From: Candidatus Jettenia caeni
Lineage (GTDB): Bacteria; Planctomycetota; Brocadiia; Brocadiales; Brocadiaceae
NCBI GenBank assembly: GCA_000296795.1
Contig: BAFH01000002.1
Coordinates: 62,001 to 126,000 of the forward strand
Direction: 5' to 3'
Length of the DNA: 64,000 bases
Within the stretch, counting starts at the first letter, position 1; each line of letters starts with the position of its first letter. Made by a program: the position numbers and the translations under genes. The notes below the pieces were generated by a model, which saw nothing but the letters and a program-made list of their open reading frames with translations, ran no database searches and was not told the origin of the DNA. This document shows, piece by piece, positions 37,389-60,910 of the stretch.

Positions 37389-37549
37389 AGTGCCTGACTA
37401 TACGTTTTTGTATATTCCTCATTATCAACAGAAGCAAGAAGATAGAATATCGCGCACCAAGCATTGTGTATCCTGTCTTCTGGATTCTGTCTTCTGAATT
37501 CTATGTTCTGTTTGCGAAGAGAATGTACAAAAACCTGTGGTCAGGTACT
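37389..37549. mobile_element. 161-bp MITE with IS630-type ends
   Basis: The ends AGTGCCTGACTATACG and CCTGTGGTCAGGTACT are inverted repeats related to those of the IS at 24456-25593. TA stands at both sides (37387-37388 and 37550-37551). The inside is non-coding with several TCTGTCTTCTG-like repeats. Confidence 0.7.
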
Positions 37550-37601
37550 TATGTGTATCATTTTCATTGACACATTCCGCTATACCGATTATATTCGTAC
37601 T

Positions 37602-41095: not shown

Positions 41096-41414
41096 TGCTA
41101 TAGCACCCAAGAGATGAAACCGAACAGAATACAGAATATGGCGAAAGTTGGTCTTTGGTTGTATGCTGGTGTATGGAACATACGGGATCCTTAAAAATGT
41201 CATTATGTGGTAGTATCCGAAGAATCCCCCTTATCAAAGGGGGACAAAGGGGGTTGTCCATTCCAGTATCTCAAAAAGAGATTGCTTCGGACAATGCCCT
41301 CGCAATGACCGGTGGAGTAATCTTTCCTCTGTTGGGGATATGTTTGGTTTCATCCTTAAAATACTATAGCATTTGGAATCTCTCAAAAAATTTAAGAAAA
41401 GAAAGGGTATAACT
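41096..41414. other. Intergenic region without a clear gene
   Basis: The region contains short palindromes (TCCCCCTTATCAAAGGGGGA at 41225-41244) and no frame of its own. It ends with the likely ribosome binding site AAAGG at 41402-41406 of the next gene. Confidence 0.35.
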
Positions 41415-42080
41415 GTGGATTTAAACGGCTTTATCAATAAACATAGAGACAAGATCGGTACGGCAAAGGACACCATAAATAAAATCCAGGATATGACAGA
41501 AAGTGTGCCTTGCAAGACTGCAACCCCTGGTGAAGAAGCGGTATTAGAATCGTACCTGTCGAGCATAATAAAAGGCACAAGTATTGAATCCCTGCGAAGC
41601 TTCATTAAAAGTGTAACCAAAGGCACCTTTACCGTCACCGAGACGCTCGTAAATGAGATCATCAAAAACTATACGCCCGACCTCAGCATAAAATTCGGTG
41701 ACGGACACTTCATATTAAACACCCCCTATTTTGTTAAGCCCATGCTCGCTTATGATACCTGCAATTTTACTGAGGATACGAGGGCTATCACCATAAAACT
41801 GTTAAACCTCACCTTCATTCCCAACGCACTCCTCAAAACGCTCACAACAAAATTCCCGTTCATTGAATTGAGCAAGGCAGCCGATAATACAAAACTCATC
41901 ACCTGCCACTTAAACAAGATCCCAAAATTAGAAAACAACAAGATCCTCAACAGCCCCTATCTGCAATTCATCACCATTGACCATATAACATGTGAAGCAG
42001 GGAAAGCCACTATCAAACTGAAAGTAAAATCTGAAAAACTATGGGCGATGCTATTAAATAACGCATTCTCAAAAACATGA
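41415..42080 (+). CDS. Hypothetical protein, about 221 residues
   Basis: I prefer the GTG at 41415 (DLNGFINKHRDKIGTAKDTI), eight bases after AAAGG, over an ATG 42 bases upstream. An N-terminal helical part is followed by a beta-rich part with LSIKFGDGHFILNTPYFVKP and, at the end, ITCEAGKATIKLKVKSEKLW. It has no signal peptide or membrane helix. I do not recognise the family; the beta-rich half faintly recalls lipid-binding DUF2993-type domains, without firm support. Confidence 0.5.
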   Translation: MDLNGFINKHRDKIGTAKDTINKIQDMTESVPCKTATPGEEAVLESYLSSIIKGTSIESLRSFIKSVTKGTFTVTETLVNEIIKNYTPDLSIKFGDGHFILNTPYFVKPMLAYDTCNFTEDTRAITIKLLNLTFIPNALLKTLTTKFPFIELSKAADNTKLITCHLNKIPKLENNKILNSPYLQFITIDHITCEAGKATIKLKVKSEKLWAMLLNNAFSKT

Positions 42081-42084
42081 TATA

Positions 42085-42330
42085 TTGAACCACAGATGGA
42101 TACAGATAAGCACGGATTGCAAAAACGCTGAAATCCTGGCAATCGTTCGCTACAAAGGGGTTGGTTATACAGAGCAAGCAAATCAGAGGTTAAGAAAACG
42201 AAATGTTGGGAGGTTGGGGACAAAAAAATCTTCAACATCCCATCTTCCCAACCTCTCAACTTCCGCCTTTTTCTCCATCAGTGTCCATCCGTGTTCATCC
42301 GTGGTTAAAAATGCAAACATCAATGTTATT
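42085..42330. repeat. Large imperfect inverted repeat
   Basis: ACCACAGATGGATACAGATA (42090-42109) pairs with TCCATCCGTGTTCATCCGTG (about 42283-42302). Inside, GTTGGGAGGTTGGGGAC and CATCTTCCCAACCTCTCAAC form a second, nested pair. It separates the unknown gene from the zinc-finger gene at 42391. Confidence 0.5.
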
Positions 42331-42390
42331 TATTACAGGGCTTTTTGAATCCATTCATGAAAAACACTTTTATAATGAAAGGAACTAAAC

Positions 42391-42594
42391 ATGGCGACTC
42401 GTGACTGTGATGTGTGTGTTGGCCGTGGATATACGAACGAGGTATGTCCGTCGTGTAAAGGTCGTCCCTCTAAGTATGTTGATGATGAAGGGTATCTTAA
42501 TGATTGTCCAACATGTGGTAATGATGGATACATAGAAAAAGTTTGCAGCAGTTGTAGCGGTTCTGGCGAAATAGAAGAGGATGATGAAGATTAA
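42391..42594 (+). CDS. Mini-protein made of DnaJ-type zinc-finger repeats
   Basis: The 67-residue protein holds four CxxC pairs: CDVCVGRGY (6-14), CPSCKGR (19-25), CPTCGNDGY (39-47) and CSSCSGSGEI (52-61). This is the CxxCxGxG pattern of the DnaJ zinc-finger region without J-domain or peptide-binding domain. AAAGGA precedes the ATG. The tail is acidic (EEDDED). It stands 107 bp upstream of the HEPN gene and may be the first gene of the GTPase operon or a separate small chaperone-like protein. Confidence 0.72.
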   Translation: MATRDCDVCVGRGYTNEVCPSCKGRPSKYVDDEGYLNDCPTCGNDGYIEKVCSSCSGSGEIEEDDED

Positions 42595-42701
42595 ATAGAT
42601 ATCTCCCCAAAATATGCTGAATATTTTTTGAAGAAAATTAACACTGTATTTTTGGATGCAATGTTAAATAATCACTAACTATTACTTCTAGGAGTTTTAC
42701 A

Positions 42702-43874
42702 ATGGAGCAAAGAAAAGTTATACCCATTATAAAAACAAACTTCAGCAATCTTAACGGAATTACTGTTGTAAACGAAGAAGAAATGAATATTTACGGAGAT
42801 ATATTTTTTAAAGATTCTAGTCCATGCTTTCGTGGGAATGGACGTTTACCTAAAACAATCAGCTCTGTAACTGAATTAACTTTATATTTAAAAGATGCAG
42901 AAGGACATGAAATTGTTTGCAACAATTGCAGGTTAGTAAATCTGCTAAATAAAAATGGACATGTTGACTCTTTTGAGGCAGAAATATTAACATTAACAAT
43001 TCAAAAAGGCAAAATCGACAAAGAAGATGAGGTGGAGATATTTAGTGCTTTACGAATAAATAGATTTTCTGGTGAAGAATTTGATCAAAATAATCACCGG
43101 TGTGTAAATATGCTTGATTTTGTTTCAAAAAGTACGTGTCTTTACAGTGTGTCTATTCCTGAAATTGCAAATTGTAATGGTTACTTATACATTCCAATAA
43201 AAATGAATAAATTTAATAATTCTGGAGAAAAACTAATTGAAAAACTTTGCTTTTTGCTTTCGTTTGTTTCTGCGAACTTTGTTGATTCTCCATATCGAGT
43301 ATTATGGAAAGATCAGGAAAACTATATGATTCAAATTTGTCCAAGTAGGTTCTCAAATAAAGGTAATGGAATTTTTAAAATAGATTTACCTGAAATAGTA
43401 CATAATTTTCTTAAAAGTGCATGGATTGCTTGGGATAATTATATTGGCAAAATTAACTTACCAGCGCTTATCGATTATTACGTTCTTATGGCAAATCAAG
43501 AGTTCATAGAGGTAAAAATCTTAATAGGTTGTGTATGGATGGAGGCTATTAAATATGAATATGCCAGTAATATTGCAAAATATAAAAAAGACAATAACGG
43601 ATATTTTTTAAAACCCAATAGTTCTAAAAAATTTAGTTTTGAAGAATTAATTAAGGAAGTTTACACGTATTTTAATATTAGTAATAGTGATGTGTCCTTT
43701 GTTGAATATCGTAATGAAGTAATACATGAAGGCAAAATAAGCCTTTCCTTTGAAGATAAAAAAAATCTGTTTAATCTTTTGGTTTGTAGTATTGAAAGTA
43801 TCATGTTAAAGATATTAAATTACAAAGGGCGTATTAGAGATCGTTTTAAGGGAGAATATGTTGAATTCTCATAA
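42702..43874 (+). CDS. HEPN-motif protein heading the dual-dynamin operon
   Basis: In this 390-residue protein the N-terminal 130 residues are beta-rich (MNIYGDIFFKDSSPCF; ELTLYLKDAEGHEIVCNNCR). The C-terminal third is helical and carries YRNEVIHEGKI, with R337-N338 and H342 matching the Rx4-6H active motif of HEPN ribonucleases. The overall layout resembles ApeA-like defence proteins, in which a sensing domain precedes HEPN. It is AT-rich in codon use. The GTPase gene follows after 73 bp. RNase activity is inferred from the motif only. Confidence 0.68.
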   Translation: MEQRKVIPIIKTNFSNLNGITVVNEEEMNIYGDIFFKDSSPCFRGNGRLPKTISSVTELTLYLKDAEGHEIVCNNCRLVNLLNKNGHVDSFEAEILTLTIQKGKIDKEDEVEIFSALRINRFSGEEFDQNNHRCVNMLDFVSKSTCLYSVSIPEIANCNGYLYIPIKMNKFNNSGEKLIEKLCFLLSFVSANFVDSPYRVLWKDQENYMIQICPSRFSNKGNGIFKIDLPEIVHNFLKSAWIAWDNYIGKINLPALIDYYVLMANQEFIEVKILIGCVWMEAIKYEYASNIAKYKKDNNGYFLKPNSSKKFSFEELIKEVYTYFNISNSDVSFVEYRNEVIHEGKISLSFEDKKNLFNLLVCSIESIMLKILNYKGRIRDRFKGEYVEFS

Positions 43875-43947
43875 TATTAAGCGTTCAATTTCTACTAAAA
43901 CGGAAGCACTTAGAATTGACTAAATACTAAAAGGGAGATTTGAGATT

Positions 43948-45981
43948 ATGAATAACTCGTTGAATATTGCACTTTCAAATTTATATAATGATCCCGAATT
44001 ATTACGGATTAAAGAGTTAGAATACCGATGTAGAGATTTGGCAAAAACTGCTGGTCTTGAGGGTAAAAATTATCCTGTATTACGTGACTCGGACTGGATA
44101 GAACGCGTATTTTCAAGAGTATCTGCCGATTTTAGCGTCATGGTCATAGGTCAAGTGTCATCAGGAAAATCTTCCTTTATAAACTCTTTATTTGGCAGGA
44201 AACTTCTTGTGCCTTCTGATCGTCCCACAGATGGTGTTGTATCAGTAATCATGTATGCTGATAGTAAAGAATCTGAAGGAGCAAAAAAGATATTAAAAAA
44301 TGGGGAGATACAGCCATTTGATTCATTGGATAAAGGACTTCAATTCCTGAGACAGCAAGAGACCCCAAGATTGGAACAATTAAGATGCAAAGAGGTAAGA
44401 CTTTATATTCACGATCCTTTATTGAGAAAATTCAGAATTATCAATACCCCGGGGCTTGGAGATAGACTCGAACAGTTTGAGCAATCGACACTTCAATACT
44501 TGCAGGAAGAAGAGTCTGATTTAATTATATGGACATTCGTTCCAGAAACAGCAGCCAACAAAGAAGAACTTGGACGATTTTCACAGAGTCTTAGGCAAAG
44601 AAAAGGGACTATACTCGGTGTGGTTACTCATATTCTAAGTGGTCATGAAGATGATTTAAACTATAATCCTTACAATGATAGCTCATGTGTTGAAATAACA
44701 GAGGCAATAAAAAAGCATTTAGGCGATTACCTAGACGATATAATATTATACGATTCTCTTGTTGCACGTAAATTAATTAATGAAATTAAAGAAAATCCGA
44801 ACCTTGAGTTTGATAACAACATGAAGATGCAATTAGAAAGATGTGGCTATACCACATTTCAAAATTATCTGCAAAGGCATCTTGGGGAAAATTATGAAAA
44901 GATTGAGACAGCAAAATTACGGTCTGTTATATTAAATTGTTCCGCACATACAGATGAATTGTCAAAGGTTTCAGCCTCTACAACTGATGCTTTTGAAGGA
45001 AAATCTACTAAGATAAAAGAAAAATTGCAGGCATGGGAAATCCTTAAAAGTAACGTTATTAGACCTGCAAAGTTACGTTTTAAAGAAGAAATCAAAACCA
45101 TGGCACAAGAAAGGGCATCAGAACTTGTTACCATTATGGGAAATGCTGCTGCTGATTGTGTTAACGCAAATTTTAATCTCTTAGGAACACTTTTCAAGTC
45201 TGCATTTTCTTATATTAAGGTTTGTAATCCAGTTGCCGACGAATTAAATGAAAAGATTGATAAATTTATTCAAGAAGCATTGATTAAGCAGAAATATTGG
45301 AAAAGATTGGATGACACATCGGAAAGATTAAGAAGTGATTTGATGGATGAATTGAAAAGTGAACTTATAAAATTTGACGAAAAAATAGATACTGATAATA
45401 AATTTATGGCGCCAATTAATATTCCAATATATAGTGGATCACCTGGATGCCAGTCTCAAAGTGTACTTGGAGAGGCTGTAGCTGCTTCACTAAAAGGTAT
45501 TGTGAGTGCTGCTTTAAAGAATCTTGCAAAAACAATAGAAAGTAGAGCTGCTTCTCAAACAGCTAAAGAAGGAGCAAAACAAACTGTTAAAAAGGTTGCT
45601 CAACAAACTGCTACAAAGACAGCACAACAAGCAGCCAAATCTACAGGTGCTTCAACTGTTGCTAAAGCAGCAAGCATATTTTCTCTTGTATTAATACCTT
45701 TTGACATACACAAATTACTTAAAGATTTCAAAAAGGGGAAAAATGAATTTGCCAACAATGTAAAATTAAGATACGAATCTGAAAAATCCATTTATGCAAC
45801 ACGTATTTATGATGCACTTTGGCCTATTGTAGAAGATGATATTAATGGAATTATCGTAGCTTTTGATGAAAAAGTAAATAAACAGGATGAACATTGGACA
45901 CAACTGGCACTTGAAGCATCCAATTGTAGTGATGATTTATTGTCCCTTAGTATCGAATTAAAATCAAGAATTGAAATGTAA
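43948..45981 (+). CDS. Dynamin-like large GTPase 1
   Basis: The protein has 677 residues. The P-loop is GQVSSGKSS (68-76), the G2 Thr is in RPTDGVVSV (about 94) and G3 is NTPGLGD (166-172). The G4 position reads VVTHIL instead of NKxD. After the GTPase domain come helical bundles with coiled-coil character. An Ala/Lys/Gln-rich repeat stretch (about 535-570, AKEGAKQTVKKVAQQTATKT) leads to a hydrophobic tip (SIFSLVLIPFDIHKLL). This fits the bacterial dynamin-like family, which remodels or seals membranes. It starts with AAAGGGAG upstream. Confidence 0.83.
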   Translation: MNNSLNIALSNLYNDPELLRIKELEYRCRDLAKTAGLEGKNYPVLRDSDWIERVFSRVSADFSVMVIGQVSSGKSSFINSLFGRKLLVPSDRPTDGVVSVIMYADSKESEGAKKILKNGEIQPFDSLDKGLQFLRQQETPRLEQLRCKEVRLYIHDPLLRKFRIINTPGLGDRLEQFEQSTLQYLQEEESDLIIWTFVPETAANKEELGRFSQSLRQRKGTILGVVTHILSGHEDDLNYNPYNDSSCVEITEAIKKHLGDYLDDIILYDSLVARKLINEIKENPNLEFDNNMKMQLERCGYTTFQNYLQRHLGENYEKIETAKLRSVILNCSAHTDELSKVSASTTDAFEGKSTKIKEKLQAWEILKSNVIRPAKLRFKEEIKTMAQERASELVTIMGNAAADCVNANFNLLGTLFKSAFSYIKVCNPVADELNEKIDKFIQEALIKQKYWKRLDDTSERLRSDLMDELKSELIKFDEKIDTDNKFMAPINIPIYSGSPGCQSQSVLGEAVAASLKGIVSAALKNLAKTIESRAASQTAKEGAKQTVKKVAQQTATKTAQQAAKSTGASTVAKAASIFSLVLIPFDIHKLLKDFKKGKNEFANNVKLRYESEKSIYATRIYDALWPIVEDDINGIIVAFDEKVNKQDEHWTQLALEASNCSDDLLSLSIELKSRIEM

Positions 45982-45985
45982 TGGA

Positions 45986-46507
45986 ATGAACAAAAAGTCA
46001 AATAAAAGCAAACAGTCAAATATTGCAGTATTTTATGGTGATTATTATAGCATGAAATACTTTGCCCAGAGATGGGCAAAAAATAAAGCAATAATAAATA
46101 AGTGGAATTGGAAGGGTAGTAATTGGGCATTTATAAAAGGGGAAAATGGATTTTCGATTTGTCTTGTTCCTCAAAAGTATACAAAAATAGATGAACTGCC
46201 TGACGGTGATATTGTATGGCTAGTTCCCGAACGTGGGCCTTCTATATATGAAGTTGCAGAATTCAGACATTTTTTAGAAAACTTTGATATTTCAGATAAG
46301 CAATTGCAAATTGTTGTGTGCTTACCACATGATCAATCTGAAAAAGAAGCAAATGAAACTATTGATGAAATCGCTAAAATGGCTAAACCTGCAGTTCCGG
46401 ATAATGTTGATGCAACAGTTGAAATAGTATGGCTTTCACGGGAAGGTATTAATACAGCGGATATGTGGTTTAAAGACATTCTTTTTAAAGGTTTTAAACA
46501 TGATTGA
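45986..46507 (+). CDS. Small linking protein of the dual-dynamin operon, no known family
   Basis: The start at 45986 (NKKSNKSKQSNIAVFYGDYY) lies four bases after the stop of GTPase 1. The 173-residue soluble protein contains hydrophobic strands IAVFYGDYY, GDIVWLVPERG, LQIVVCLPHD and VEIVWLSREGI alternating with helices, an alpha/beta layout. It overlaps GTPase 2 by 8 bp, so all three are translationally coupled. I do not recognise the fold; a partner or regulator bridging the two GTPases is plausible. Confidence 0.7.
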   Translation: MNKKSNKSKQSNIAVFYGDYYSMKYFAQRWAKNKAIINKWNWKGSNWAFIKGENGFSICLVPQKYTKIDELPDGDIVWLVPERGPSIYEVAEFRHFLENFDISDKQLQIVVCLPHDQSEKEANETIDEIAKMAKPAVPDNVDATVEIVWLSREGINTADMWFKDILFKGFKHD

Positions 46508-49145
46508 TACATCTCTTTTTTGGTTAAATAGTTATGATAAATTATCAATAAGTTGCTATTCACGTACAGATTTTATTCGGCATTGGCAAAAATTAAATGG
46601 ACACCCACAATGTTTTGGGGTATCTGGTAAACTTACGGGAAAAAATAATAACGAAAATATCACAACTCCACGTAACTGTGGTGAAAATACCTGTCCCGTA
46701 AGAATACCTTGTGAAGGGTTGCATGAAAATGCTCCTTTCAGTAATGCCAAACTCCGTGAAAAAAGTATTGAGATTCTCAGTAAAGTTCTTTTTCTTGCAA
46801 AAGTTATTGAAGGACAGGATACGATAACAGCCTTTCAGTATGATATTGAAAAACTTATAAAAGATTGGAATCATGACACACCACAAGTTGCGATCATTGG
46901 CGCTTTTTCTTCAGGCAAATCTACACTTATCAACCGAATTCTTAATACAGACATCTTAACAGTTAAAAGAACCCCAACTACAGGTGTTGTAACGGTTACT
47001 TGCTACGGTCATGAGCCAATTGCAAACCTATATTTTAGAAAAATAGTAACAATGGGTTTGCTTGCCGCTGATAAACAGCATGTCGATAAAGATGTCCTGC
47101 TAACATTACATTCTTGGATATCTTCGCCTGACAAATTTAATGTTAAAAACATTTTTGAACTTTTTGAAACTGATTTCAAACCCATTGATATAGTACATCT
47201 AAAATCACAATTAGAAGAACTGCTTAGTTATGTTAAACCTCATAACATAGAACCAAATGTAAAAACCATTTCATTAACTGAAAAAATTAAAAGAAAGATT
47301 ACTGGACAACCTTCAGCTATAGAAAAATTTACGCGTAACTTTAAAATTGAATTTGCAGATAGCGAACCTATTAATTTTGATCTTAGGAAAAAAGAAGATG
47401 TTAACGAATTTAAAACTTATCTTAGCGATTATCAAAAATCAATTCGAGTTGAAAAAGCTTTGTGTAGATTGCCACATAAGGATTTAAAGACATTCAATTT
47501 ACTTGATACAGCAGGATTATGTTCTCCATATGCTTTTCACACAAGTATTGTAGAAGAACTTTTATCAAGAAAGCCGGATAAATTAATAATTCTTTTAGAT
47601 TCAAGAAATTTAGAAGGTCCAACAAATCATGAAGCAATAAAAGTGCTTAAACAATTTGTATCTTCTTCATCTGAATTAAGAAGAATTACTTTTGGTTTAA
47701 CATTCTGGAATATTTTACTACGTAACTATATGGAAAACGATCGTGAACCTGAGTTGTCTTTTTTAAATGCGAATTACAGACAAATTGCAGTGAGTGAGCT
47801 TTCTAAAAAAATCCGTAGTCAACTTCGTAAATTATTAGAATCATCGTTAAGCTTTAGATGTGAGATAGAACCTGTTTCTTACACACTTGCGCTTGGAGAT
47901 TCAGTACCTGACGATATAGGATACAGCCTTGATTCTCTTCGTAAAGGACTACGAAATGAATGTAGTGGATGGATTGGCGTTAAGATGTGGGCAGAAAGGT
48001 GGCAATTCAAGAAAGATATCGGAAATTGTCTTTTGGAATTAGTAAAGAATAAAGCTTTAAAAATAGAAGATGATATAAACAATTGTAACTCAGATAGAAG
48101 TTTTGATGATGAAATAACAAGGCTTAACAAAGATGAGGAATCAACAAACAGGAGATTTTCTCAAATAGAACAAGAAATACTTGAACAACTGAACTCAAAA
48201 CAGTCTTTAGCTATTTCAGAGATCAATATGCTCGATTCAAAATCGCAAATTATGGAATATATAAACACAGGTTACACAAAAACAATCACAAATATTCTCG
48301 ACACAATAAAGACATATTCTGAAAACCAATTCAACAGTTTGATGGAGATTATAAATAATGGTGAAAATATTTTATTTTATAAAAACAATTATGTTATTGA
48401 CTTTGATAGAAGACTTTTAGGCTTGGAAGAATCAGCGAAGAAAGAAGCGGAAGGTAATATTACAGGTTTAGGGTATACTTTCAAAGGTATATGGGACTTT
48501 TTACTTGGTTCAATAAAAGAATGGAACGCTTCAAGCAGGGCTGCAGCAAGGGATACCTTAAAACGTGAACTTGTTAAAACAATAGATATAACTCGATCTG
48601 CTATTACTAGACGTAATAAAAATCTATTTCCACTAAAATCTCAAATAATTTCGAGAATTCAAGAACAGAAACGGCAAATAGAAGAACAACAGAGAAACAA
48701 AAAGGATCTGCTGTTGCGTCTAAAAAAAAGACTAGCAGAGATTGAGGGATTATATAAAATATGTGAAAGAGTGGAAAAAGAAATAAAAAACTATACAAAT
48801 GATATTATTTCTGCAAATGAAAGAGTAATGTTATCAAAAAGAAGTGATTTCAAGGCTTATCTTGTAGATGTACAAGGGAGAATTCATTCTTTTAAAAAAG
48901 GTCGTAGTGAGGGAACACTTATTTTATTAAATCCTCCACAATCTGAATGGAAAGAAATTGTGCTTGAAATTAATGATTATAAAACAGTTTATTATCCACA
49001 AAAAACCAATAGTCCAGTTTGGGTTAAATTCGAAGAAAAAAACGAAATTAAACCATATACCCCATTATGTATACTTAATCCAATAGAGCTTTATTTAACA
49101 ACAATGACTGCAAAGCTAATAGAACCTCGTCGGACAGTAAAATAG
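46500..49145 (+). CDS. Dynamin-like large GTPase 2 with Cys-rich N-terminal segment
   Basis: The protein has 881 residues. Residues 1-80 carry five Cys, three of them in CGENTCPVRIPC (60-71), and resemble no domain I know. The GTPase domain follows: P-loop GAFSSGKST (134-142), G2 in TPTTGVVTV, then a long insertion (about 175-325), and G3 DTAGL (336-340). A long coiled-coil region lies around 545-770 (IQEQKRQIEEQQRNKKDLLL). The last 110 residues are beta-rich (GTLILLNPPQSEWKEIVLEI). It has no clear membrane helix. The pair of unlike dynamins in one operon recalls heteromeric bacterial dynamins. Confidence 0.82.
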   Translation: MIDTSLFWLNSYDKLSISCYSRTDFIRHWQKLNGHPQCFGVSGKLTGKNNNENITTPRNCGENTCPVRIPCEGLHENAPFSNAKLREKSIEILSKVLFLAKVIEGQDTITAFQYDIEKLIKDWNHDTPQVAIIGAFSSGKSTLINRILNTDILTVKRTPTTGVVTVTCYGHEPIANLYFRKIVTMGLLAADKQHVDKDVLLTLHSWISSPDKFNVKNIFELFETDFKPIDIVHLKSQLEELLSYVKPHNIEPNVKTISLTEKIKRKITGQPSAIEKFTRNFKIEFADSEPINFDLRKKEDVNEFKTYLSDYQKSIRVEKALCRLPHKDLKTFNLLDTAGLCSPYAFHTSIVEELLSRKPDKLIILLDSRNLEGPTNHEAIKVLKQFVSSSSELRRITFGLTFWNILLRNYMENDREPELSFLNANYRQIAVSELSKKIRSQLRKLLESSLSFRCEIEPVSYTLALGDSVPDDIGYSLDSLRKGLRNECSGWIGVKMWAERWQFKKDIGNCLLELVKNKALKIEDDINNCNSDRSFDDEITRLNKDEESTNRRFSQIEQEILEQLNSKQSLAISEINMLDSKSQIMEYINTGYTKTITNILDTIKTYSENQFNSLMEIINNGENILFYKNNYVIDFDRRLLGLEESAKKEAEGNITGLGYTFKGIWDFLLGSIKEWNASSRAAARDTLKRELVKTIDITRSAITRRNKNLFPLKSQIISRIQEQKRQIEEQQRNKKDLLLRLKKRLAEIEGLYKICERVEKEIKNYTNDIISANERVMLSKRSDFKAYLVDVQGRIHSFKKGRSEGTLILLNPPQSEWKEIVLEINDYKTVYYPQKTNSPVWVKFEEKNEIKPYTPLCILNPIELYLTTMTAKLIEPRRTVK

Positions 49146-49513
49146 ATAAGTAAGAATGATTTTTTTCTTCACTTAACCTAAACCCCATAACTGAAAAAGG
49201 TTTGTGTTTTCTGACAGTATATCAAATTTCCATTTCTGCTATTAGATGGATAAACAAATTATGGGTATCGTAAACATGAAGGTAATCTTGAGAAATCCAA
49301 ATAACCCAAATATAGTGATCTCAAAACAAAATGTCACATAGCATAGCAAATTTTGCTGGAAAATACAGTGCTTTTGAAGATGAAAAAGCGACATTTTGTT
49401 TTAACATTACTATACTACAATATCAATATTCAAGGTACTAACGAGCACAGTATTACTTTTTGATGTAACGAGTTTTGTAGATAAGTTTGCAGTTAATAAA
49501 GATAGGAAAAGAT
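49146..49513. other. Intergenic region with a hairpin and one copy of a 41-bp direct repeat
   Basis: AAAACAAAATGTC (49323-49335) and GACATTTTGTTTT (49391-49403) are perfect inverted repeats. Bases 49460-49500 are a direct repeat that recurs at 53377-53410 plus 54571-54577, where an IS splits it. No gene was found. Confidence 0.5.
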
Positions 49514-49798
49514 ATGAAATCAGTTAATAAGTCAAAAAAAACGTCTACAGCAAAAAATACCAGGCCACAAAAGGCGTCTAAGGTTACCATAGAAAAAAGA
49601 ATACGAAAATACCGGCTTAAAGATGCGGAAAAACAGGAGGAAGAAGACTTAAAATATTGGGCTTCGGCTTCGATTTCTGAAAAAACCGAAATGGCTTATT
49701 CCCTGTGGGAAGAATGCTATTGGATACAAAAAGGGGTAAATATTAATGCACAAAGACTTCGAAGAGTTCTTGAAATTGCTAAATTACCACAAAGCTAA
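49514..49798 (+). CDS. Small basic protein preceding a nucleotidyltransferase-like gene
   Basis: The start at 49514 (KSVNKSKKTSTAKNTRPQKA) is favoured by GGAAAAG upstream. Of 94 residues, the first 50 are strongly basic and the last 40 form helices (KTEMAYSLWEECYWIQKGV). It overlaps the next gene by 53 bp. The arrangement resembles two-gene nucleotidyltransferase toxin-antitoxin modules; which role this one takes is unclear. Confidence 0.62.
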   Translation: MKSVNKSKKTSTAKNTRPQKASKVTIEKRIRKYRLKDAEKQEEEDLKYWASASISEKTEMAYSLWEECYWIQKGVNINAQRLRRVLEIAKLPQS

Positions 49799-50198
49799 AT
49801 ACGTAATAGTAGGTGGTTATGCCTTAAGCGCATACTTCATACCAAGAGCCACGAAAGACTTGGATATTCTCATAGAACCATCCCAAAATAACGCAATAAA
49901 AGTAATTGAAGCCCTTAAGGAATTTGGATTTAATTTATCAAATCTGGAAACAAAAGAACTCATGAGTCCAGAAGTAATTATTCAGTTGGGTAGGCCTCCG
50001 GTAAGGATAGATATCCTCACATCTATCACAGGAGTAGAGTGGAAAGAAGTATGGAAAAACAGAAAAAAAGGGGCTTTCGGAGAATCTCAGATTTCTACTT
50101 ATTTCATAGGAAAAAACCAATTGATTAAAAATAAAATAGCAACCGGAAGAGAACAGGATTTATTAGATGTAAAGAAATTGAAAAAACTAAAAGAGTAG
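49746..50198 (+). CDS. Nucleotidyltransferase-fold protein (MNT/AbiEii-like)
   Basis: In this 150-residue protein KYVIVGGYALSAYFIPRATK is followed directly by DLDILIEPS. This is the GG(x)ALxxY...R.TxDLDI signature of small nucleotidyltransferases used as toxins or antitoxins. A third acidic residue stands in RPPVRIDILTSI. It probably transfers a nucleotide to a partner protein or RNA. It is the second gene of the pair, overlapping the basic protein gene. Confidence 0.8.
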   Translation: MHKDFEEFLKLLNYHKAKYVIVGGYALSAYFIPRATKDLDILIEPSQNNAIKVIEALKEFGFNLSNLETKELMSPEVIIQLGRPPVRIDILTSITGVEWKEVWKNRKKGAFGESQISTYFIGKNQLIKNKIATGREQDLLDVKKLKKLKE

Positions 50199-60539: not shown

Positions 60540-60910
60540 AAGCCTTCGGTAACCTTTATCTTTTATCAAAACGTAGGGCAGGGCTTTAGCCTTGCTTCCC
60601 CGCCTGAATTGTATATGAGGATAGCAAACCTAAAAAGGCTGTCCGAGAATGCTTTCACACGACAAATTCTATACTATATGCTGACAAAATATTAGCATGA
60701 TAACAATATTTAGTCTGGCATTTGTGGGTCGATTGAATTCTCGGACAGCCTGTAAAGGTTTGCCCTACGGAATTGAAATTCCTATACATCAAATTAAGCT
60801 ACCATAAGTAGCAACTTCTTTGCTTATTCCCAAATTCTTCCCCATGCCCTCATGAACATAGGGAAGAATTTGGGAACAAGCAGTTACAAATTGAAATTCC
60901 TGAATATTAA
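60540..60910. repeat. Two tandem modular repeat units, one carrying a MITE
   Basis: Unit 1 (about 60540-60795) has the core GTAGGGCAGGGCTTTAGCC with inverse GGTTTGCCCTACGG and ends ATTGAAATTCCTATACATCA. Unit 2 (to 60910) has the core ATTCCCAAATTCTTCCC (60825-60841) and GGGAAGAATTTGGGAA (60862-60877) and ends ATTGAAATTCCTGAATATTA. Both belong to the family at 33375-33955. Confidence 0.6.
60636..60751. mobile_element. 116-bp MITE inside a repeat hairpin
   Basis: AGGCTGTCCGAGAAT (60636-60650) and ATTCTCGGACAGCCT (60737-60751) are perfect inverted repeats. TAAA on both sides may be the target duplication. Removing the element rebuilds a palindrome, GCAAACCTAAAGGTTTGC. Confidence 0.68.

Follow-up and report, generated by a model that had tools for sequence, protein, structure and literature searches.

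Bacterial dynamins are mostly encoded as pairs (PMC6104087). In enterotoxigenic Escherichia coli, leoC, leoB and leoA are arranged with the BC part before the A part (PMC4159319), the order also met at the locus described below. DynA of Bacillus subtilis protects populations of this bacterium against phages by delaying lysis (PMC8844932), and dynamin pairs are listed among defence systems as Eleos or 'Dynamins' (PMC11811056). Such pairs are common, and their switching-on is poorly understood. Here we describe a locus in a stretch of 64,000 nucleotides of Candidatus Jettenia caeni (contig BAFH01000002.1, positions 62,001 to 126,000; hereafter the window), in which the genes of two unlike dynamin-like GTPases, dyn1 and dyn2, enclose the gene of a small protein, mid. 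We lean towards reading dyn1-mid-dyn2 as a dynamin system of three components, rare and spread horizontally, that is most likely directed against phages or other invading elements and in which the dynamin pair would be gated by mid.

In its layout, the trio resembles Eleos (LeoA and LeoBC), with genes of two dissimilar dynamin-like GTPases next to each other, the BC-like gene preceding the A-like one. However, the profile matches are weak: dyn1 matches the LeoBC profile of PADLOC-DB at 3e-6 (24.6 bits, residues 152-611), dyn2 matches LeoA at 2.6e-7 (28.1 bits) with its N-terminal part only, and the NCBIfam LeoA model gives 18.8 bits, below its cut-off of 325. The trio further differs from Eleos by the conserved 173-aa gene between the pair, by the long stretch separating G1 and G3 in dyn2, and by a dyn1 without a clear N/TKxD motif. 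DynA of B. subtilis likewise brings two dynamin modules together and offers a plausible model of protection at the membrane level (PMC8844932), but there the modules are fused in one protein, chromosomally encoded, and no small partner has been described. In Campylobacter jejuni, the dynamins DLP1 and DLP2 are encoded side by side and form a heterotetramer, yet the portion of PMC6104087 drawn on here describes no pseudo-GTPase gene between them and does not propose them as defence. Judged by these comparisons, the trio appears to be a divergent variant of the known dynamin pairs with an added conserved subunit. What is new here is the middle protein as a predicted pseudo-GTPase partner, dynamin pairs (LeoA/LeoBC, 'Eleos') being already known; searches of open-access full text turned up neither a dynamin-HEPN system nor a dynamin pair accompanied by a small GTPase-like gene.

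Conservation and rarity of the dyn1-mid-dyn2 trio

The grouping of the three genes is recognised in Neobacillus sp. OS1-33, where relatives of dyn1 (39%, full length), mid (30%) and dyn2 (34-35%) follow each other in the same order. Local alignment scores between the two loci are 1225 for dyn1, 218 for mid and 1082 for dyn2, compared to maxima of 67, 46 and 86, respectively, for shuffled sequences. Since the order of the trio is kept in another phylum, the grouping of these genes goes beyond chance, and dyn1-mid-dyn2 represents a true conserved unit spanning two phyla. The genes are also tightly spaced in the window, with 4 bp between dyn1 and mid and an overlap of 8 bp between mid and dyn2, so that 518 bp, holding mid, separate dyn1 from dyn2. 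Both figures agree with those of a first-pass annotation of this DNA, whose five plus-strand open reading frames (ORFs; Table 1) are all present.

The system is rare. Relatives of dyn1 were sought in a collection of 84,980 species, where the matches found are a lower bound and further members are possible. No close relative of dyn1 was found in 392 genomes of the phylum, and mid is present in one of 197 relatives' genomes, without any further copy. With a dyn2 profile, the Neobacillus copy was the only one retrieved from the approximately 650 genomes around this genus and Pelotomaculum, a mid profile run over all fetched loci recovered the Neobacillus copy only, and close relatives of the trio were absent from plasmids, viral contigs and phages, the last searched with dyn1.

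In regard to the dynamins themselves, both match the Pfam family Dynamin_N (Table 1) and carry a G domain of the dynamin type in which G1 and G3 are recognisable, namely GQVSSGKS (68-75) and NTPG (166-169) in dyn1, and GAFSSGKS (134-141) and DTAG (336-339) in dyn2, where about 190 residues lie in between. The canonical G4 (N/TKxD) gave no pattern match in the G domain of either protein; near its expected place, VTHILS in dyn1 and TFWN/TYWD in dyn2 can be discerned by eye. A hydrophobic stretch of dyn1 seen in its hydropathy profile (567-585) could be a membrane paddle. The NCBIfam model DynmDynABac matches the G1 region only, and about 115 C-terminal residues of dyn2 are missing from the Neobacillus relative.

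The middle protein

No family match was found for mid in Pfam. Its AlphaFold2 model, computed from a two-row alignment of the window and Neobacillus sequences, the latter read through its one in-frame stop, is a compact alpha/beta structure with a predicted local distance difference test score (pLDDT) of 69 and a predicted template modelling score (pTM) of 0.68. When this model was compared to the PDB using Foldseek, small GTPases were the best hits, with YsxC at 8.6e-6 and Rag chains of the folliculin complex at 1e-4. A second aligner, VIA, placed Rag/Gtr and Arf/Arl chains at Z 11-12, with about 140-150 of the 173 residues aligned (about 148 at Z 12), Z 7-8 being the usual level for models without a clear match; a Z of 12.1 came with a root-mean-square deviation of 4.0 over 149 residues. 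From this model, mid is predicted to have a Ras/Rag/Arf-like small-GTPase fold.

The places of the nucleotide-binding motifs can be followed in both mid sequences. Between beta-1 and alpha-1, at the position expected of a P-loop, mid has the segment GDYYSMKY (18-25), corresponding to GDETCMKY in the Neobacillus protein; compared to GxxxxGK[S/T], these keep the lysine but have lost the second glycine as well as the serine/threonine. LPHD (113-116; LPSD in Neobacillus) follows beta-5 at the place of NKxD (G4), and the blocks in which the two proteins are most alike include FGDxxxMKYF and CLPxDQ, at the would-be G1 and G4. Because it lacks a functional P-loop of this form, mid is predicted to be a pseudo-GTPase partner of the dynamin pair. 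Small GTPases such as Rag/Gtr, Arf/Arl and YsxC/EngB are thus alike in the predicted fold, but differ from mid in that its P-loop is degenerate, DxxG is absent, LPxD stands for NKxD and identity is about 10%. The idea that mid arose from a dynamin G domain by divergence was considered and rejected, as it has no sequence support; a strand 'xxIxWxxPE' at the beta-4 position is seen in both mid and the dynamin G domain, by eye only.

It is conceivable, though we put it forward tentatively, that the trio represents an undescribed type of anti-phage system, with a catalytically degenerate Rag/Arf-like GTPase as the dedicated control subunit of a dynamin pair. If the prediction is true, the trio would be a prokaryotic parallel to the control of membrane machinery by small GTPases, and a compact system whose third subunit is GTPase-like would make dynamin control and phage defence at the membrane level accessible to experiment.

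The HEPN and zinc genes as separate units

The first-pass annotation had regarded five genes as a single candidate defence operon, in which the dynamin pair would be coupled to or controlled by a HEPN ribonuclease, the first gene encoding a DnaJ-type zinc-finger mini-protein. The term 'tight series' used there suits dyn1, mid and dyn2, but not the zinc and HEPN genes, which are separated from their downstream neighbours by 107 and 73 bp. That one operon of five or four genes joins a HEPN ribonuclease and the dynamin pair in a common action could be argued from the shared strand, from the position of the HEPN gene 73 bp upstream of dyn1, and from the presence of HEPN gene and trio in one inserted block (42,643-49,444). 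This block is defined by a sister genome of the same genus (G001, L180), whose DNA matches the window in two parts: 41,363-42,642, with the zinc gene and a 235-aa ORF, and the sequence from 49,445 onwards, with a 103-aa ORF and a DUF6036 nucleotidyltransferase (94%). In between, G001 has 3.3 kb of unrelated genes, including a zeta-toxin-like ORF, instead of the 42,643-49,444 segment. The zinc gene therefore belongs to the resident flank, as it occupies the same site in G001 beside other cargo, frameshifted there by a 4-nt deletion near its start, and the exchanged block consists of the HEPN gene and the trio. The zinc mini-protein itself has a weak match to the DnaJ central domain (Pfam, E 2e-4).

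The HEPN gene and the trio, in turn, each occur without the other. A copy of the HEPN protein with 77% amino acid identity is found in a genome of a related genus (G010), with no dynamin nearby, and its nucleotide similarity to the window is confined to 42,682-43,879, stopping at the edges of the gene. In Neobacillus, neither a HEPN nor a zinc gene lies within roughly 7-10 kb on either side of the trio, and searches of the genomes of Neobacillus and of Pelotomaculum, the other one with a dyn1 relative, revealed no relative of the HEPN protein. Control of the dynamin pair by a ribonuclease is therefore unlikely, although the homologues of the GTPases without a HEPN gene amount to two other loci. 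Together with the persistence of the zinc gene in G001 despite the exchange of the block, these comparisons (G001, G010 and Neobacillus) led us to reject the five-gene operon, and we regard a joint action of HEPN ribonuclease and dynamin pair in an operon of five or four genes as very improbable. The five genes rather represent three evolutionary units, the zinc gene, the HEPN gene and dyn1-mid-dyn2, of which only the last remains from the proposed operon. The HEPN gene is a separate cassette, probably for RNase-type defence, that moved independently into the same spot as the trio, and its pairing with dynamins here is most likely an accident of cassette insertion.

In G010, the HEPN copy (L049, G010:C149) sits between moaC-like and moaA-like genes, named by sequence and by eye. 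The corresponding interval in G018 (L197) and G021 (L198) holds the 103-aa ORF and the nucleotidyltransferase (84% in both). Because the interval with the HEPN gene in G010 holds the right-flank genes of the window block in G018 and G021, this family of genomes seems to shuffle small cassettes through common sites. Besides the HEPN gene, the G010 interval carries small toxin-like and other ORFs, and with its cargo differing among G010, G018 and G021, all of one genus, the interval has the appearance of an integration hotspot.

The HEPN protein is probably a ribonuclease. It has a variable N-terminal part and RNExxH near the C terminus, invariant in five HEPN proteins (R337, N338, E339, H342), one of which, a relative, matches HEPN_RiboL-PSP at 0.001. 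This arrangement is shared with HEPN ribonucleases of the ApeA/RiboL-PSP-HEPN kind, and we take it to be ApeA-like; unlike them, the window protein matches no HEPN family profile directly (Pfam, PADLOC), and its single-sequence structure model has a pLDDT of 32. Distant relatives (on a Rubrobacter plasmid, L034, and at L050 and L051) share the C-terminal half and lack dynamins of the dyn1/dyn2 type. At L050 and L051 (G151), they lie directly 3' of a conserved gene of about 300 aa (MAKHRLFSKRNQQRP...), which suggests a two-gene HEPN module. Pairing of the HEPN gene and the DUF6036 nucleotidyltransferase (49746) as a HEPN/MNT system was also considered and rejected, since each occurs without the other: the nucleotidyltransferase pair without HEPN in G001, G018 and G021, and HEPN without the nucleotidyltransferase in G010.

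Genomic context and possible function

The strongest argument for a defence role is the setting of the relatives. A WYL regulator starts about 0.7 kb after dyn2 in Neobacillus, and JetD3, JetA3 and JetC3 (Wadjet III) are located about 3-7 kb downstream of the trio there. In Pelotomaculum propionicicum, the remnant of dyn1 lies directly downstream of genes resembling LmuA/LmuB (Lamassu), DrmMI/type IIG enzymes (RM/DISARM) and DpdE (Dpd). Given such neighbours, both other known places of the trio or of dyn1 are defence islands. The expectation that the genes co-occur in defence islands was thus borne out for the trio, though not for the HEPN gene, which is not alongside, and the context supports a defence role of the trio.

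With such a role, dyn1 and dyn2 could form a heteromeric pair assembling on the inner membrane, with mid as a regulatory or sensing subunit working without the usual P-loop chemistry. In the manner of small GTPases in heterodimers, mid might dock on the G domain of one of the dynamins and either hold the pair inactive or nucleate it. Upon infection, the pair would polymerise and remodel the membrane, which could brace it and delay lysis, as DynA does, or disable the cell.

Alternatively, the trio could be a stress or membrane-maintenance dynamin pair carried on mobile DNA, with no primary role in defence, comparable to the roles proposed for DynA under membrane stress or for LeoABC in vesicle release. 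Work on LeoABC (PMC4159319) and Cj-DLP1/2 (PMC6104087) has concerned secretion and vesicles, and the weak LeoBC and LeoA matches of dyn1 and dyn2 point in the same direction. However, sparse distribution, low GC content, replacement at the site and the defence neighbours of both relatives fit defence better than maintenance, and we consider this alternative unlikely.

Several observations weigh against a three-component defence system gated by mid. Some bacterial dynamins hold housekeeping roles. The Neobacillus dyn1 and mid are each interrupted by one in-frame stop, dyn2 being open, and P. propionicicum retains only a remnant of dyn1 (54-56%), so that two of at least three occurrences among the matches listed are broken. 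The locus in the window lies outside any large defence island. In addition, the model of mid is shallow, built from two sequences at a pLDDT of 69, and profile comparison found no sequence-level kinship between mid and the G domains of the dynamins. The decay of two of the three known copies fits a costly function and proves none.

Such decay would also be expected of a membrane-damaging abortive-infection or toxin-like module, in which mid restrains the two dynamins and its loss or displacement kills the infected cell. A small regulator encoded between two effectors and translationally coupled to them is in line with this. Yet in Neobacillus mid and dyn1 are both interrupted while dyn2 is open, so mid is not singled out as an antidote, and a module of this kind also seems improbable to us.

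Insertion site and neighbouring features

The block has a GC content of 31-35% over 42-51 kb, compared to about 40% around it, and is flanked on either side by transposases of insertion sequence (IS) elements (38645, 51308, 53504). The neighbourhood had been portrayed as holding toxin-like modules and IS elements; the latter are indeed present, but the surroundings are mostly housekeeping genes (MurJ, pseudouridine synthase, RlmN, TldD, EF-G) and a nucleotidyltransferase pair. The locus is an insertion spot among housekeeping genes and IS elements, not a large defence island.

Table 1. Features of the variable block and its flanks (window coordinates).
Feature	Position	Strand	Description
Zinc mini-protein	42391..42594	+	67 aa, four CxxC pairs, DnaJ-type; resident flank
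HEPN protein	42702..43874	+	390 aa, RNEVIH at 337-342; a stand-alone cassette
dyn1, dynamin-like GTPase	43948..45981	+	677 aa, Dynamin_N 8e-19
mid, middle protein	45986..46507	+	173 aa, homologue in same place in Neobacillus
dyn2, second dynamin-like GTPase	46500..49145	+	881 aa, Dynamin_N 6e-11
Variable block (HEPN gene and dyn1-mid-dyn2)	42643..49444		bounded by the breaks of the window-G001 alignment
103-aa ORF and DUF6036/AbiEii-like nucleotidyltransferase	49487..50198	+	conserved right flank, elsewhere in the family carried alone

The alternative cargo of G001 (L180:3465-6758) comprises three proteins of no recognised family (336, 97 and 167 aa) and the zeta-toxin-like ORF of 104 aa.

Five further loci (L035 on a Lysinibacillus plasmid, L036, L037, L164 and L089) carry two or three dynamin genes of other families and lack mid. 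At L035 (Lysinibacillus capsici plasmid pFN9B, 7881-14547), three dynamin genes stand in a row near AbiEii and MmcB-like genes. At L036 (G143:C101:43000-62000), a dynamin is fused to an N-terminal Ser/Thr kinase domain (mad6/PD-T4-6-like, E 5e-68) and adjoins a 1200-aa P-loop protein and a LeoC-like protein, which looks like another composite dynamin system. L037 (G124:C44) combines a LeoBC-like dynamin and a LeoA-like protein of 1252 aa; upstream lies a ZorA/LeoB-like coiled-coil gene, and downstream, judged by eye, a TIR-type gene.

Finally, interspersed repeats of about 100-170 bp, present in dozens of copies in these genomes, occur in the window at 37393-37550 and 60625-60770. They are absent from the orthologous site in sister genomes and resemble miniature inverted-repeat transposable elements.

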